In this document: positions 18,187 through 60,910 of the stretch, in pieces
Position numbering within the stretch: position 1 is the stretch's first letter
Layout of the letters: each line of letters opens with the position of its first letter
Origin: Streptomyces pacificus
GTDB lineage: Bacteria; Actinomycetota; Actinomycetes; Streptomycetales; Streptomycetaceae
Length of the DNA stretch: 64,000 nt
Assembly (NCBI RefSeq): GCF_011766325.1
Contig: NZ_BLLG01000011.1
Span: 1-64,000, forward strand
Direction of reading: 5' to 3'
The notes under the pieces: generated by a model
Told to the model about the DNA's origin: nothing
Databases searched by the model: none
What the model saw: the letters and a program-made list of their open reading frames with translations, nothing else
Translations under genes and position numbers: made by a program

Positions 18187-18303
18187 GCCCGGGCCGCCTC
18201 TCCGAGATCGTCAACTGGCGGCTGCGATCCTAGGTTTGCGATCCGGGCGGCGCACGGAGGGCCGCGCGGATCCGGCCCGTGGCTCAGCGGCTCCGGCGTG
18301 TAC

Positions 18304-19371
18304 TCAGCGGCTCCGGCGTGTGACGAACTCCGCCAGCGCGAGCAGGTCACCCGCTGCGTCGAGGTCGGGCACGGCACGGGAGAGCTGTTGTACGGCCCGG
18401 CCCATCCGGTCCGCCGCCTGCAGCTGGGCCCAGTCACGTCCCCCGGCCCGCTCCACCGCGTCCGCGGCCCGGGCGACCGCTCCCGGGGTCATCGGCCCGG
18501 CGTACAGTTCGGCGAGTTCCGCACCCGCTTCGGTGCCCGAGCCCAGGGCCGCCACCACCGGCAGCGACTTCTTGTGCGCGGCCAGGTCGGCGCCCGCCGG
18601 CTTGCCCGTGCGGTCCGGATCGCCCCAGATGCCGATGAGGTCGTCGATCAGCTGGAAGGCCAGTCCCGCCTCCCGGCCGAACGCGTCCATCGCGGCGGTC
18701 TCCTCCTCGCCCGCCCCCGCGTACAGCGCGCCGAGGGCGCAGGCGGAGCCCAGCAGCGCCCCGGTCTTGGCCGTGGCCATGGCGATGCACTCGTCGAGGG
18801 AGACCTCCCCCGGCCCGCGCTGCTCGAAGGCGCAGTCCGCCTGCTGGCCGGCACAGAGTTCGATCACGCAGGCCGCCAGCCGCGCGGAGGCCGCCGCGGA
18901 GGCCGGATGCCGGTCCTCGGCGAGCAGCCGCAGCGCCAGGGCCAGCATGGCGTCACCCGCGACGATGGCGTCCGCGGTGCCGAACACCGTCCAGGCGGTG
19001 GGCCGGTGCCGGCGGGTGGCGTCCTCGTCGATGACGTCGTCGTGGAGCAGGGTGAAGTTGTGCGCGAGTTCCACGGCCGCGGCCGGGCGCAGCGCCTGCT
19101 GCGGGTCCCCGCCGAGCGCCCGGGCCGCGGCGAGCACCAGGGCCGGCCTGATGGCCTTGCCCGCCGGCCCGGCGGCGGGTGTGCCGTCGGCGTGCTCCCA
19201 GCCGAAGTGGTACTTCGCGACGCGGCGTATGGAGGCGGGAAGGGAGTCGACGGTGTCCCGCAGCCCGGGGTCGACGGCGCTGCGGGTGTGTTCCAGAAGC
19301 CGCGCCGCCTCGTGTGAGTCGGTGTCCGCGGCGTCGGCGGCGTCGGCGGCGTCGGCGGTGGTCGTGGTCAC
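18304..19371 (-). CDS. Polyprenyl diphosphate synthase, probable encapsulin cargo
   Basis: A 355-residue trans-prenyltransferase. The first aspartate-rich motif DDVID is at residues 111-115 (TLLHDDVIDED). The second is at 243-251 (QLIDDLIGIWGD). The lysine/arginine substrate-binding segment is GKAIRP at 71-76. It condenses isopentenyl units onto an allylic diphosphate, and chain length (C20 to C30) is not certain. The first 18 residues are a low-complexity ADAADAADAAD tract encoded by a repeat, preceding the fold by about 30 residues. In family 2 encapsulins such disordered N-terminal extensions act as cargo-loading domains. The shell gene lies directly upstream, 208 bases away. The start is GTG. 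Confidence 0.9.
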   Translation of the reverse strand: MTTTTADAADAADAADTDSHEAARLLEHTRSAVDPGLRDTVDSLPASIRRVAKYHFGWEHADGTPAAGPAGKAIRPALVLAAARALGGDPQQALRPAAAVELAHNFTLLHDDVIDEDATRRHRPTAWTVFGTADAIVAGDAMLALALRLLAEDRHPASAAASARLAACVIELCAGQQADCAFEQRGPGEVSLDECIAMATAKTGALLGSACALGALYAGAGEEETAAMDAFGREAGLAFQLIDDLIGIWGDPDRTGKPAGADLAAHKKSLPVVAALGSGTEAGAELAELYAGPMTPGAVARAADAVERAGGRDWAQLQAADRMGRAVQQLSRAVPDLDAAGDLLALAEFVTRRSR

Positions 19372-19384
19372 GGTCTCGTCCTCT

Positions 19385-19434
19385 GCTGACAGGGGCTGAC
19401 AGGGGCTGACAGGGGCTGACAGGGGCTGACAGGG
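19385..19434. repeat. 10-bp tandem repeat x5 (GCTGACAGGG)
   Basis: Five exact head-to-tail copies run from 19385 to 19434, between the encapsulin stop and the synthetase start. They overlap the region where the synthetase ribosome site should be, only 14 bases upstream of its GTG. They read CCCTGTCAGC on the coding strand. A G-rich run follows up to the shell gene. Confidence 0.95.
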
Positions 19435-19579
19435 TGCTGCGGGAGGTGGGTCTCGGGTGGGGCGGCACGGGGGCGGGGGCGGGGGCTGATGCGCTGGGGT
19501 GGTGGAGGGGGGAACGGCAGGGGGTGCGGGCGGGGCGGGAGCGGCGCCGGGCCGCTCCCGCCGGGGGCGGCGCCGGGTG

Positions 19580-21013
19580 TCAGCGCCAGCGGCTCACCTC
19601 GACGTTCTCCAGCACGCCCAGGGCGTCGGGCACCAGGACCGCCGCCGAGTAGTAGGCCGTGACCAGGTAGGAGATGATGGCCTGCTCGTCGATGCCCATG
19701 AACCGGACGGAGAGGCTGGGCTCGATCTCGTCGGGGAGGCCGGCCTGGTGCAGACCGACCACGCCCTGGTCGTCCTCGCCCGTACGCATGCAGATGATCG
19801 ACGTGGTCCGGTCCTTCGAGATCGGGATCTTGTTGCACGGGAAGATCGGCACCCCGCGCCAGGAGGGGATGCGGCTCCCCCCGATGTCCACGGTGTCCGG
19901 GTAGACGCCGCGCCTGCTGCACTCCCGGCCGAAGGCCGCGATGGCCCGCGGATGGGCCAGGAACATCCTGGAGCCGCGCCGCCTCGACAGCAGCTCGTCC
20001 ATGTCGTCCGGGCCGGGCACGCCGTCGTGCGGCTGGAGCCGCTGTCCGTAGTCGCAGTTGGCCAGGAGGCCGAAGTCCTTGTTGTTGACGAGTTCGTCCT
20101 CCTGGCGCTCCCGCAGCGCCTCGACCGTCAGCCGCAACTGCTGCTCGGTCTGGTTCATCGGCTGGTTGTAGAGGTCGGCGACCCGGCTGTGCACCTTGAG
20201 CACGGTCTGCGCGACGCTCAGTTCGTACTCGCGGGGCGAGGCCTCGTAGTCGACGAACGTGTGCGGGACGACGGCTTCGCCGACATGGCCGGCCGAGAGG
20301 TCGATGGCGGCCTCCCCGTACTTGTTGGTCCGCTGCTGGGGGACCGACACCACGGAGCGGAGGTGGCCGGCGAGGGACTCGGCACGGTCCGCGAGGGTCA
20401 GCACGTCCTGCCGGGTGAGCTCGAGCGCGATGCACGCGGTGCCGGCCCGGGCGGTGAACTCCCATACGGCGCCGTCGTCGACCAGCGACCGCTCGCCGAA
20501 GTAGGAGCCGTCGGCGAGGACGCCGAGCACGGCCTCGTCACCGTAGGGCCCGGTGCCGATCTGCTCCACCCGGCCGTGCGCGAGGAGGAACACCCGGTCC
20601 GTCGCCTCGCCTTTCGCCGCGAGCACGTCACCCGGCGCGAACCGCACCTGCCGGCAGCGCTGGGCCAGCTCGCGCAGCACCGCCTCGTCGCCGAATCCCC
20701 GCAGGGGCGGCAGTTCGCCGAGTTCCCCCGGGATGACCTCGACCTGGCTGCCCGTCTGGACGAAGGTGACCCGGCCGTCGCCGACCGCGTAACTGAGCCG
20801 GCGGTTCAGCCGGTACGTACCGCCCTGCACCTGGACCCAGGGCAGCATCCGCAGCAGCCACCGGGAAGTGATCTCCTGCATCTGGGGGGCCGACTTGGTG
20901 GTGGTCGCGAGATTCCGCGCCGCCGCCGTACCCAGACTCTGCTGCGGCTGTGCCGCGTCCTGGGCGCCTTCGCGCGCCTCGTCACCGACCGGACCGACCG
21001 TACCAACCGACAT
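19580..21013 (-). CDS. Family 2B encapsulin nanocompartment shell protein with cyclic-nucleotide-binding domain
   Basis: A 477-residue protein. Residues 1-45 are a flexible N-arm, about 48-100 the first HK97-fold part, about 110-215 an inserted cNMP-binding-like domain ([37 protein letters not shown]), and 225-477 the rest of the shell fold ([64 protein letters not shown]). The C-terminus is [20 protein letters not shown]. It should assemble into a T=1 protein shell around a cargo enzyme, here most likely the adjacent polyprenyl synthetase. The ATG at 21013 has GGAG seven bases upstream. The arginine usual in cNMP pockets is not obvious after GERSL, so ligand binding is uncertain. Confidence 0.93.
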
Positions 21014-22248: not shown

Positions 22249-23169
22249 GTGAGCCAGCCCGTAGACCTCGACCGCGCACTTCGGCCCCGGCTGCCCTCCC
22301 CCTTGCAGGAGGTGCGGGACGAGCGCTTCGCGCGGCACGGGCTGCGGCTGCTGCTCAAGCGGGACGACCTCATCCACCCCGAGCTGCCCGGCAACAAGTG
22401 GCGCAAGCTGGCGCCGAACCTGCGCGCGGCGGCCGGCCGGACCCTGCTCACCTTCGGCGGCGCGTACTCCCACCATCTGCGCGCCACGGCCGCCGCCGGG
22501 CGGCTGCTCGGCTTCCCCACGATCGGCGTCGTCCGGGGCGACGAGCTCGCCGAGAGGCCGCTCAACCCGTCGCTCGCCGCCTGCGCCGCCGACGGCATGC
22601 GGCTGCACTTCGTGGACCGTGCCACGTACCGCCGTGCGTCCGAGCCGGAGGTGCTCGCGGAGCTGCGGGTGCGCTGCGGGGCGCCGGCGGGGTGCCGGGT
22701 CGTCCCGGAGGGCGGCAGCAACGCCCTCGCGGCGCGGGGCTGTACGGAGCTGGGCCGCGAGCTGCGCGGCGCGGCCGATGTGGCCGCCGTGGCGTGCGGG
22801 ACGGGAGGGACGCTCGCCGGGCTCGCCGCCGGACTCGGGGACGGGGCGAGGGCGCTGGGCGTACCCGTGCTCAGGGGGGGCTTCCTGGGCGAGCGGACGG
22901 CCGCCCTCCAGAGAGAGGCCTTCGGCGGCCCGGCCGGCGACTGGTCGCTGGACGAGCGGTTCCACTTCGGCGGGTACGCCCGCGTCCCACCGGCTCTCGA
23001 GGCGTTCGCGCGGGACTTCGAGGCGCGCCACGCACTGCCGGTCGAGCGGCTCTATGTCGCCAAAATGCTCTATGGACTCGTCGTCCTCGCCGGCGAGGGC
23101 GCCTTCCCGCCGGGAACGGCCGTGGCGGCGGTGGTCACCGGCGGGCCTCAGCCCGAGGGCTCGCGGTAG
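22249..23169 (+). CDS. PLP-dependent D-cysteine desulfhydrase / ACC deaminase-like enzyme
   Basis: A 306-residue fold-type II PLP enzyme. The Schiff-base lysine is in the motif LPGNKWRKLAPNL. The phosphate loop is VACGTGGTLAGLAAGL and an early motif is LKRDDLIHPELPG. The length and FGGAYSHHLRATAAAG segment fit the ACC deaminase/D-cysteine desulfhydrase subgroup. Which amino acid it cleaves is not determinable here. The GTG start at 22249 (VSQPVDLDR) is the best choice. Its 3' end overlaps the convergent antiporter gene by 22 bases. Confidence 0.87.
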   Translation: MSQPVDLDRALRPRLPSPLQEVRDERFARHGLRLLLKRDDLIHPELPGNKWRKLAPNLRAAAGRTLLTFGGAYSHHLRATAAAGRLLGFPTIGVVRGDELAERPLNPSLAACAADGMRLHFVDRATYRRASEPEVLAELRVRCGAPAGCRVVPEGGSNALAARGCTELGRELRGAADVAAVACGTGGTLAGLAAGLGDGARALGVPVLRGGFLGERTAALQREAFGGPAGDWSLDERFHFGGYARVPPALEAFARDFEARHALPVERLYVAKMLYGLVVLAGEGAFPPGTAVAAVVTGGPQPEGSR

Positions 23170-24749
23170 GCGGCCGCCTCCTCGAGATCCAGCCGCCGCA
23201 GCAGCGCCCGCATCATCTCGTCGTCGATCCGGCGTTCGTCGCGGAGCCGCACGAACACCGCACGCTCGGCCTGGATCACCTCGCGGGTGAGGCGGCGGTA
23301 GGTGCCGTCGGCGGACTCGCCCGTGACGGGGTTGACCGCCCCCAGCCGCTCCCAGGGTGAGTTCCTGCGGTGTTCGAGGACCGTGCGCAACCGGTCGAGG
23401 AGCGGATCCGGAAGTGCGTTGCCCGGGTCGGCGACGAGTTCCTCCAGCCGCCGTTCCGCCGCGCGGGACGCCTCGCTCTGCGCCTGTGCCTCGGCCAGGG
23501 TGACGCTCGTCGGATCGCGCTCAGGGAGCTTCAGGGCACGGATGAGCGCGGGCAGGGTGAGCCCCTGCACCACCAGGGTGCCGATGACCGTGGTGAAGGT
23601 GAGGAAGAGGATCAGGTTGCGCGCCGGGAAGGGCTCGCCGGCGGATGTGAGGACCGGGATGGAGAACGCGATCGCCAGGGAGACCACGCCCCGCATCCCG
23701 GCCCAGCCGACGATCACCGGGGCCCGCCAGTCCACGCCGGGCTCGCGCTCCCTGATGCGCCGTGACAGCACGCGCGGGACGAAGGTCGCGGGGAAGACCC
23801 ACACGAAGCGGGACACGACCACGACGCCGAAGACGACGACGGCGTACCCGGCGACCTCCCGGGCCGAGAAGGAGCCGATCTGCCCCACCACGGGCGCCAG
23901 TTGCAGTCCGATCAGCGCGAAGACGGCCGACTCGAGGACGAAGGCGGCCATCCGCCAGACCGCCTCCTCCTGGAGCCGGGTGGCGAAGTCGACCTGCCAG
24001 GAGCGGTGCCCGAGGAAGAGGGCGACGACCACGACGGCCAGCACTCCGGAGGCGTGCACGTGCTCGGCGGCGGCGTAGGCGACGAAGGGGATCAGCAGGG
24101 ACAGGGTGTTCTGCAGCAGGGGTTCCCGCAGACGGGTCCGCAGCCAGTGGATCGGCACCATCAGGACCAGGCCGACGCCGACACCCCCGGCCGCGGCGAC
24201 GAGGAACATCGCGACGCCCTCGCCCCAGGTGATGCCCTCGCCGACGGCGGCCGCCAGGGCGACCCGGTAGGCGGTGATGGCGGTGGCGTCGTTCACCAGG
24301 GACTCGCCCTGGAGGATCGTGGTGACCCGGCCGGGCAGGCGGAGCCTGCGGGCGACCGCGGTGGCCGCCACCGCGTCGGGCGGGGCGACCACCGCGCCGA
24401 GCACGAGCGCGGCGGTCAGCGGGAGTCCGGGGATCACCAGGTGCGCCACCCACCCCACGACGAGGGTCGCGAAGAGCGTGTAGCCGACGGAGAGCAGCGC
24501 GATGGGGCGGACGTTGGCCCGCAGATCGAGGTATGAGCTGTCCAGCGCGGCCATGTGCAGCAGCGGAGGCAGGATCAGCGGCAGCACGATGTGCGGGTCC
24601 AGGGTGTATTCCGGGACTCCGGGCAGGTACGAGGCGACCAGACCGACCGCGACGAGGAGCAGCGGCGCCGGCACCGCCGTCCTGCGGGCGATCCCGGCGA
24701 CCGCGGCGCTCGCCGCGACCAGCGCCACCACCGACAGCGCGTCCATCAT
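23148..24749 (-). CDS. CPA1 family Na+/H+ antiporter
   Basis: A protein of about 533 residues. It has some 12 membrane helices in the first 400 residues, with the ion-translocating NDA motif in LQGESLVNDATAITAYRVAL, and the conserved GWAGMRGVVSLAIAF segment. The cytosolic tail of about 130 residues (RAAERRLEELVADPGNALPD...) is helical. It exchanges protons for sodium or potassium across the plasma membrane. Two adjacent ATGs (24749 and 24746) are both possible starts after GGGAAGG. It diverges from the small zinc-finger gene. Confidence 0.92.
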   Translation of the reverse strand: MMDALSVVALVAASAAVAGIARRTAVPAPLLLVAVGLVASYLPGVPEYTLDPHIVLPLILPPLLHMAALDSSYLDLRANVRPIALLSVGYTLFATLVVGWVAHLVIPGLPLTAALVLGAVVAPPDAVAATAVARRLRLPGRVTTILQGESLVNDATAITAYRVALAAAVGEGITWGEGVAMFLVAAAGGVGVGLVLMVPIHWLRTRLREPLLQNTLSLLIPFVAYAAAEHVHASGVLAVVVVALFLGHRSWQVDFATRLQEEAVWRMAAFVLESAVFALIGLQLAPVVGQIGSFSAREVAGYAVVVFGVVVVSRFVWVFPATFVPRVLSRRIREREPGVDWRAPVIVGWAGMRGVVSLAIAFSIPVLTSAGEPFPARNLILFLTFTTVIGTLVVQGLTLPALIRALKLPERDPTSVTLAEAQAQSEASRAAERRLEELVADPGNALPDPLLDRLRTVLEHRRNSPWERLGAVNPVTGESADGTYRRLTREVIQAERAVFVRLRDERRIDDEMMRALLRRLDLEEAAAYREPSG

Positions 24750-57740: not shown

Positions 57741-57749
57741 GGCCTACAG

Positions 57750-57823
57750 TAGCGGGGACAGGATTTGAACCTGCGACCTCTGGGTTATGAGCCCAGCGAG
57801 CTACCGAGCTGCTCCACCCCGCG
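57750..57823 (-). tRNA. Initiator tRNA-Met (CAT), copy 1
   Basis: A 74-base cloverleaf read on the minus strand, beginning CGCGGGGTGGAGCAGCTCGG. The anticodon stem is CTGGG/CCCAG with loop CTCATAA, with the three G-C pairs of initiators. The T arm is GCAGGTTCAAATCCTGT. The 5' C1 faces U72, so the first pair is unmatched, the hallmark of formyl-Met tRNA. CCA is not encoded (the 3' end is CCCCGCTA, then CT). Identical to the copy at 60837-60910. Confidence 0.97.
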
Positions 57824-60827: not shown

Positions 60828-60836
60828 CGATCTCAG

Positions 60837-60910
60837 TAGCGGGGACAGGATTTGAACCTGCGACCTCTGGGTTATGAGCCCAGCGAGCTACCGAGCTGCT
60901 CCACCCCGCG
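60837..60910 (-). tRNA. Initiator tRNA-Met (CAT), copy 2
   Basis: Base-for-base identical to the gene at 57750-57823, including the unmatched first pair and the CTCATAA loop. The flanking downstream ACT..GC and terminator core are similar, so the duplication covers the gene and its end. It lies between the UPF0182 gene end and the Sel1 gene start on the same strand. Confidence 0.97.

Follow-up and report, generated by a model that had tools for sequence, protein, structure and literature searches.

A family 2B encapsulin shell and prenyl diphosphate synthase pair of Streptomyces pacificus as a possible half of a split geosmin compartment

Among the described family 2B encapsulin operons, 900 carry a polyprenyl diphosphate synthase (PT), 904 a terpene cyclase and 165 both (PMC8346489), in agreement with the two types of cargo named in a preliminary description of the DNA studied here. 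In the same source the encapsulin-associated PT class has 50–100 disordered N-terminal residues and no conserved motif, while cargo resembling geosmin synthase (GS) bears the motif GPTGLGTSAAR between and behind its two domains. Also, in cyanobacteria and Deltaproteobacteria geoA is followed by two cnb genes (PMC7251104), and in Myxococcota encapsulins are reported in all geosmin clusters (PMC12224551), although the myxobacterial GS locus of our own sample (Hyalangium, L322) showed none. We have analysed a window of 64,000 nucleotides of Streptomyces pacificus (assembly GCF_011766325.1, contig NZ_BLLG01000011.1, positions 1 to 64,000), in which a family 2B shell gene and a PT gene lie together on the minus strand. 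With about even confidence, we take this locus to provide the shell and the precursor supply of a geosmin compartment whose genes are split, the third gene, that of GS, lying elsewhere in the genome. As far as sequences can tell, this reading draws on the class of the shell and of the PT, their conserved pairing, the existence of clusters joining GS, shell and PT (in some cases with genes of the methylerythritol phosphate (MEP) pathway), remnants of a cargo tag in unlinked GS, and the joint absence of shell and GS.

The shell gene (19580–21013, minus strand) is an open reading frame of 477 amino acids with an ATG start at 21013. Its product scores 763.5 bits against NCBIfam NF041163 ('family 2B encapsulin shell', cut-off 400), covering model positions 1–450 of 450, whereas the family 2A model NF041162 yields 371.3 bits, below its cut-off of 380. 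The HK97/SrpI-like part, matched by PF19307 (E 4e-138), comprises residues 225–474 (19592–20341), and a cyclic-nucleotide-binding (cNMP-binding) domain, PF00027 (E 2e-16), occupies residues 123–209 (20387–20647), an internal position as in family 2B and unlike family 2A, which has no such domain. The HK97 fold split by a cNMP-like domain that had been proposed earlier, with a 2B profile search as its check, is therefore borne out. The closest solved chains, 9bhu (E 4e-194), 9bix (E 3e-184) and 9bje (E 1e-179), align over nearly the full length, and by homology to these solved shells the protein probably assembles into icosahedral shells; 9bix carries the Enc2 motif of S. lydicus, GAELHGTDVR, and 9bje is presumed to stem from the same work. 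This genome holds one copy of PF19307 and thus a single shell gene, which rules out a two-component 2B shell. The PT gene (18304–19371, minus strand; 355 amino acids, GTG start; PF00348, E 3e-56) follows the shell after a gap of 208 bp (19372–19579), precisely as described before. The enzyme is of the short-chain trans type, in the class of farnesyl and geranylgeranyl diphosphate (FPP/GGPP) synthases, matches PDB 3nf2 (E 5e-71, aligned from PT residue 22), and with 486.5 bits passes the model for the family 2 encapsulin cargo polyprenyl transferase, NF041169 (cut-off 450).

The conservation of the pair was surveyed in 150 genomes of the genus, considering shells at least 71% identical (121, in 118 genomes) and PTs at least 70% identical (116). 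A PT lies directly downstream of 112 of the 121 close shells, on the same strand and at a distance of 2–641 bp (median 159.5), and because it recurs to this extent the pairing is not chance; the comparison of gene order that had been suggested in the preliminary description thus speaks for its prediction, and the pair belongs to the published PT-type family 2B kind. The nine close shells without an adjoining PT are those of G006, G141, G101, G010, G051 and G112 and second copies in G052, G053 and G114. The PT is absent in G006 and G141 (in the latter a GNAT gene comes straight after the shell) and reduced to a 112-codon remnant in G101, yet all three genomes retain both shell and GS. In G010 and G051 the neighbour of the shell is GS, which in G010 is divergent and seems to have a broken frame, and in G051 is on the same strand. 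The second copies of G052 and G053 adjoin cyclases of the 2-methylisoborneol (2-MIB) type, the one of G114 lies close to the end of a contig, and in G112 the locus is split over contigs. Conversely, a PT without adjoining shell was found in G076, G130, G102 and G112.

A search of this genome with PF19086, the one terpene synthase family searched, returned a single protein with two such domains (G000:C2:111134-113383), encoded on another contig than the shell. Its two-domain architecture and family matches, rather than any product, mark it as a probable geosmin-synthase-type enzyme, and the idea put forward earlier that the downstream enzyme lies elsewhere thereby gains a specific candidate. 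The best NCBIfam match of this GS is NF041168, 'family 2 encapsulin cargo terpene cyclase' (1136.1 bits, cut-off 1200), so that the naming of GS-like cyclases as cargo is already a known part; the shell-linked GS of locus L228 likewise remains under this cut-off (1079.2 bits). We have looked for the GPTGLGTSAAR-like motif in 106 distinct GS (identical ones merged; nearly all from this genus), and at one or other of the two sites 96 of them show it with p≤0.01 against shuffled sequences, 103 with p≤0.05, values that are uncorrected for the use of two sites; the three that fail at 0.05 are L169 (p 0.06), L200 and L213. In the GS of this genome the C-terminal site reads GPLALGMSAAD (p 0.008), a weakened tag, while the site in the interdomain linker has no tag score (p 0.48). 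A shell was present in the fetched flank of 10 of the 106 GS, the flank being 1.5 kb for many of them.

Clusters in which the three genes are together occur elsewhere. Locus L228 has, on one strand, the order IspH-GS-shell-PT-DXS (L228:3976-11604), and L229, also on one strand, IspG-IspH-PT-GS-shell-DXS (L229:4238-12931); judged by their MEP-pathway genes, both would be geosmin clusters running from precursor to product with a 2B shell of their own. Among GS loci of named genomes (the best 80 of at least 586, a biased sample in which L268 matches the contig of L229), a shell is within the flank of GS in 40 of 43 loci outside Streptomycetaceae and in 3 of 37 inside, and a PT is near GS in 8 of the 80, including Kribbella and Actinopolyspora. 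Locus L314 (Saccharothrix sp. ST-888) is counted within Streptomycetaceae, where we take it to belong. Across 396 sampled genomes of the phylum, 15 contain GS; three of these lie outside the genus, and in each of the three a shell adjoins GS. In a tree of 144 shells the clade of the window's shell comprises 55 tips (support 0.999), 46 of them PT-linked, and holds the PT-less loci of G006, G101 and G141 as well as three GS-linked shells, namely that of S. flaveus (80% identical), G010 and G051. Shells of this one clade thus occur with GS, with 2-MIB-type cyclases and with PT.

The joint distribution of shell and GS gives a further line of evidence. A shell (E≤1e-60) was detected in 384 of 392 genomes, this threshold mixing families 2A and 2B, and the eight without it are G008, G050, G102, G587, G599, G618, G725 and G741. 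Its absence was confirmed by a PF19307 search in the five examined (G008, G587, G599, G618 and G725), and GS is missing too in seven of the eight; nor, apart from a fragment in G102, do the eight possess a PT of at least 70% identity. By comparison, GS is present in 146 of the 147 shell-bearing genomes of the 150 set (the exception being G099) and in 11 of 12 shell-bearing controls (the exception being G775), which were hand-picked as eight small genomes and four near relatives. The co-absence gives a Fisher p of 8e-4 in the 150 set and of 4.5e-10 in the pooled set, which is not random, the test ignoring relatedness in both cases. In a tree of 30 genomes built on the rpoB region (a DNA segment cut by an open reading frame apparently antisense to rpoB, hence not an RpoB tree), the shell-less genomes are scattered: G618 is beside G088, G741 groups with G043, and G725 is beside the clade formed by G098, G034 and the present genome. 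As a separate observation, G775 has a shell (E 7e-127) and neither a GS nor a PT orthologue, and is sister to the shell-less G599.

According to the split-compartment reading, the locus contributes two products, a one-component family 2B shell and a prenyl diphosphate synthase of the short-chain type; GS, encoded on the other contig, would gain access to the lumen through the motifs resembling GPTGLGTSAAR in its linker and at its C-terminus; farnesyl diphosphate (C15) would come from the PT, beside or inside the shell; and the shell would limit escape or side reactions. Loading in trans, a C15 product and flux through the shell are steps that we infer from the sequences. The PT is kept less tightly than shell and GS, as would befit a helper rather than the sole cargo.

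A number of observations weigh against this reading. GS and shell are unlinked, being on different contigs here and 1.68 Mb apart in the single-contig relative G763, and the GS of this genome combines a score below the cut-off of its cargo model with a weakened C-terminal tag and a linker site devoid of tag score. The co-absence is softened by the hand-picked controls, by a test blind to relatedness and by a shell threshold that spans 2A and 2B; moreover, the shell-less G008, G050 and G102 are assemblies in 740–1770 contigs, in G102 (1420 contigs) one contig begins with a fragment of GS and the PT fragment is present as well, and shells without GS exist in G775 and in G099 (1020 contigs). Elsewhere, no shell was seen in the flank of GS in L282, L322 and L346. 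The PT carries no tag, its best non-cargo NCBIfam match is a GGPP synthase model, below cut-off, and it may itself be the cargo because 116 of the 150 genomes keep it, 112 of them beside the shell. The second shell copies L085–L087 fall within the window's clade, L085 and L086 being beside 2-MIB-type cyclases and L087 ending near the shell; as the clade includes shells linked to such cyclases, cyclases other than GS are possible partners as well, and our confidence was for this reason lowered from slightly above even to even. Finally, EshA is said not to be required for 2-MIB synthesis (PMC6428758), for which reason the shell is perhaps dispensable for product formation.

How a distant GS might be recognized is suggested by the shell itself. 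The best match to the cargo tag within the whole shell lies in its N-terminal arm (N-arm; residues 23–40, 20894–20947, minus strand; p 0.009 when the first 60 residues are shuffled 5000 times), and a regular expression finds this N-arm motif in 130 of 151 shell genes. The motifs compared are QSLGTAAAR in the shell, GLGTSAAR in GS and QSSLPAAAAR in a 2-MIB-type cyclase. A profile made from 63 distinct shell N-arms was run over 905 neighbour genes, taken from a rough gene finder that mis-called the PT of the window, with 2-MIB-type cyclases being named by NF041167 (four) and, in L077, by a neighbouring methyltransferase, NF041943. These cyclases take ranks 1, 2, 5, 10–12, 21, 105 and 232 and GS ranks 3, 14, 238 and 262, the 13 terpene cyclases outranking 848 other genes with p 3e-8; against whole-protein shuffles, only 70 of 106 GS reach p≤0.05. 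The same profile also favours PTs over other neighbours (Mann-Whitney p 1.8e-13 over the whole length, weakly over the first 80 residues, p 0.0025), with top windows deep inside the protein, for example at position 315, and because of this position we take the PT scores to reflect composition and the profile test to be inflated. The likeness between N-arm and tag is for that reason a lead and no proof. According to the source on the S. lydicus shells, one of two 2B shell proteins shows a resolved N-arm and the other does not, and a luminal loop is proposed for cargo loading (PMC12407261); no word beginning with 'mimic' was found in its main text. We consider it a tentative possibility, clearly less probable than the split compartment as such, that the genus makes geosmin in a compartment built in trans, in which the EshB-type shell beside the PT would capture the distant GS through a signal that copies the shell N-arm, the cargo replacing the N-arm or pairing with it. 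Separately, the 2-MIB-type cyclases L075:6766-8112, L077:9585-10907 and L081:6218-7567 (NF041167) have QSSLPAAAAR or QSSLPAAVAR near the N-terminus, like the shell N-arm.

The foremost alternative is that the PT is the only cargo and that the shell encloses it, the linear C15–C20 prenyl diphosphate being used by cytosolic enzymes. This corresponds to the published PT-type reading, with its 900 operons (PMC8346489), as well as to that of the preliminary description, and agrees with the adjacency in 112 of 121 shells and with the passing of the NF041169 cargo model. It has to be set against the loss or truncation of the PT in G006, G101 and G141, all of which keep the shell, the occurrence of same-clade shells beside terpene cyclases instead, and the properties of the PT N-terminus, where a cargo tag was sought and none found (p 0.95). 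The tract ADAADAADAAD, noted earlier as a low-complexity extension of a type that loads cargo, does exist and is encoded by a 9-bp tandem repeat of 4.3 copies (19320–19358, minus strand); as this repeat is missing from the nearest relatives, the tract is not a conserved loading peptide. Indeed, relatives whose shells are 96% and 93% identical have PT N-termini reading VTITRADTAATDAPEAARLLERTR and VTMTSPDAAATEAHEAARLL, respectively, both lacking the tract, and other PT orthologues possess about 5–60 N-terminal residues with no motif common to all. The longest possible frames of the PTs from the GS/shell/PT clusters leave at most 23–27 residues ahead of the first-helix VEP in four of seven cases (L269, L280, L290 and L301) and 29 in L270, whereas L331 and L339 leave more room; in the window PT 32 residues precede the corresponding VDP. 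In the AlphaFold2 model of the latter (mean pLDDT, the predicted confidence, 90.3) the single run below 50 is residues 1–15, which, together with the alignment to 3nf2 from residue 22, does not correspond to the published disordered domain of 50–100 residues. Repeat origin, relatives without the tract, short possible extensions and the short low-pLDDT run led us to reject the tract as a cargo tag. Considering both sides, we hold this alternative to be possible though rather improbable.

Other features of the PT gene may be stated here. The first Asp-rich motif, DDVID (residues 111–115, 19027–19041), has D111, D112 and D115 invariant in an alignment of eight sequences, as are D243–D244 of the second Asp motif (18640–18645); for each PT in this alignment the start taken was the one closest to the aligned start, a choice that lets the extensions seem shorter than they may be. 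A C20 product, too, would be compatible with the Phe found five positions ahead of the first Asp-rich motif. A separate 10-bp tandem repeat of 5.4 copies is within the gap between shell and PT (19385–19439), and a perfect 20-bp direct duplication at 18283–18321 spans the PT stop codon. In nine other loci (L056, L061, L063, L064, L067, L070, L071, L091 and L092) the PT begins with an EFMTET- or DFMTET-like stretch (AEFMTET), followed by a variable linker; this may be a group-specific signal, and it is missing from the window PT.

With lower probability still, and in our view unlikely, the shell forms a developmental particle of the EshA/EshB type with another cargo or none, the PT being a neighbouring gene of isoprenoid supply. 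Consistent with this, eshA and eshB are up-regulated in development of S. coelicolor (PMC3878966), the formation of large multimers by EshA is the title of a cited paper, and the insertion domain of 2B shells reportedly lacks cyclic-nucleotide binding (PMC12407261); the joint absence of shell and GS in several lineages and the tag-like motifs kept in most surveyed GS argue in the opposite direction. On gene numbers and products, and not on sequence comparison, the window shell would correspond to eshB (SCO5249; PMC3878966) and the PT to SCO5250 (PMC7494193). In respect to regulation, geoA is reported as a direct WhiH target (PMC8549240), and in a whiH mutant arrays and quantitative reverse transcription PCR show an increased expression of eshB that the S1 assay hardly reflects (PMC3878966).

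Within the cNMP-like domain of the shell, residue 184 (20462–20464) is a Trp kept in 138 of 144 shells, close to where an Arg is conserved in proteins that bind cyclic nucleotides; this Trp may be the sign of a different ligand.

That GNAT, DUF6304 and amidase genes form one functional unit with shell and PT, as was surmised earlier, is very improbable. In favour of such a unit, all three lie within 4 kb, and the GNAT gene follows the PT at a distance of 117 bp and in the same orientation; against it, they are present in only 21, 21 and 27 of 44 loci, respectively, with the amidase on the opposite strand, while a Na+/H+ antiporter gene (23148–24749) is nearby in 44 of 44. The constancy of the antiporter points to a fixed chromosomal (syntenic) site for the pair rather than to a unit with its neighbours. 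Farther along the window, two tRNA-Met (CAT) genes lie about 3 kb apart on the minus strand (57749–57823 and 60836–60910).

Should the shell be a geosmin compartment, a near-universal soil odorant with a lone cyclase and a near-universal shell with a tagless neighbour would become one system, and the likeness of tag and N-arm would provide family 2B with a concrete loading mechanism. In the open-licence literature, searched without supplements and as far as its text was available, we found no work joining the EshB/PT shells of the genus with unlinked GS, which is weak evidence, nor a product or cargo tag for PT-type 2B shells. What appears to be new is the recognition of the sole protein matched by PF19086 in this genome as a probable unlinked GS with a weakened 2B cargo tag, connected to the shell by comparison.

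Four known systems are close to the present one. The S. lydicus two-component 2B shell shows near full-length homology (9bix, E 3e-184; 9bje, E 1e-179); there, a putative xylulose kinase system comprises two shell genes, whereas here there is one (PMC12407261). In the operon eshA-mibA-mibB, a related 2B shell is likewise beside a terpenoid enzyme; cyclase and methyltransferase adjoin it there, while here it is a PT, with no cyclase (PMC6428758). The encapsulin clusters with terpene cyclase and PT and those for geosmin with geoA and cnb genes (PMC8346489, PMC7251104, PMC12224551) contain the same gene families, a GS with the same tag and homologous shells, and the present locus differs from them in that shell and PT alone have stayed together, the cyclase being unlinked and carrying a weakened tag. 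Closest of all is the PT-type 2B operon (PMC8346489; NF041163 and NF041169), which shares the shell with an internal cNMP-like domain, the PT downstream and a PT without tag; compared with it, the N-terminal extension of the PT measures about 15–20 residues here against the published 50–100, and the clade of the window's shell includes members linked to GS and to 2-MIB-type cyclases.

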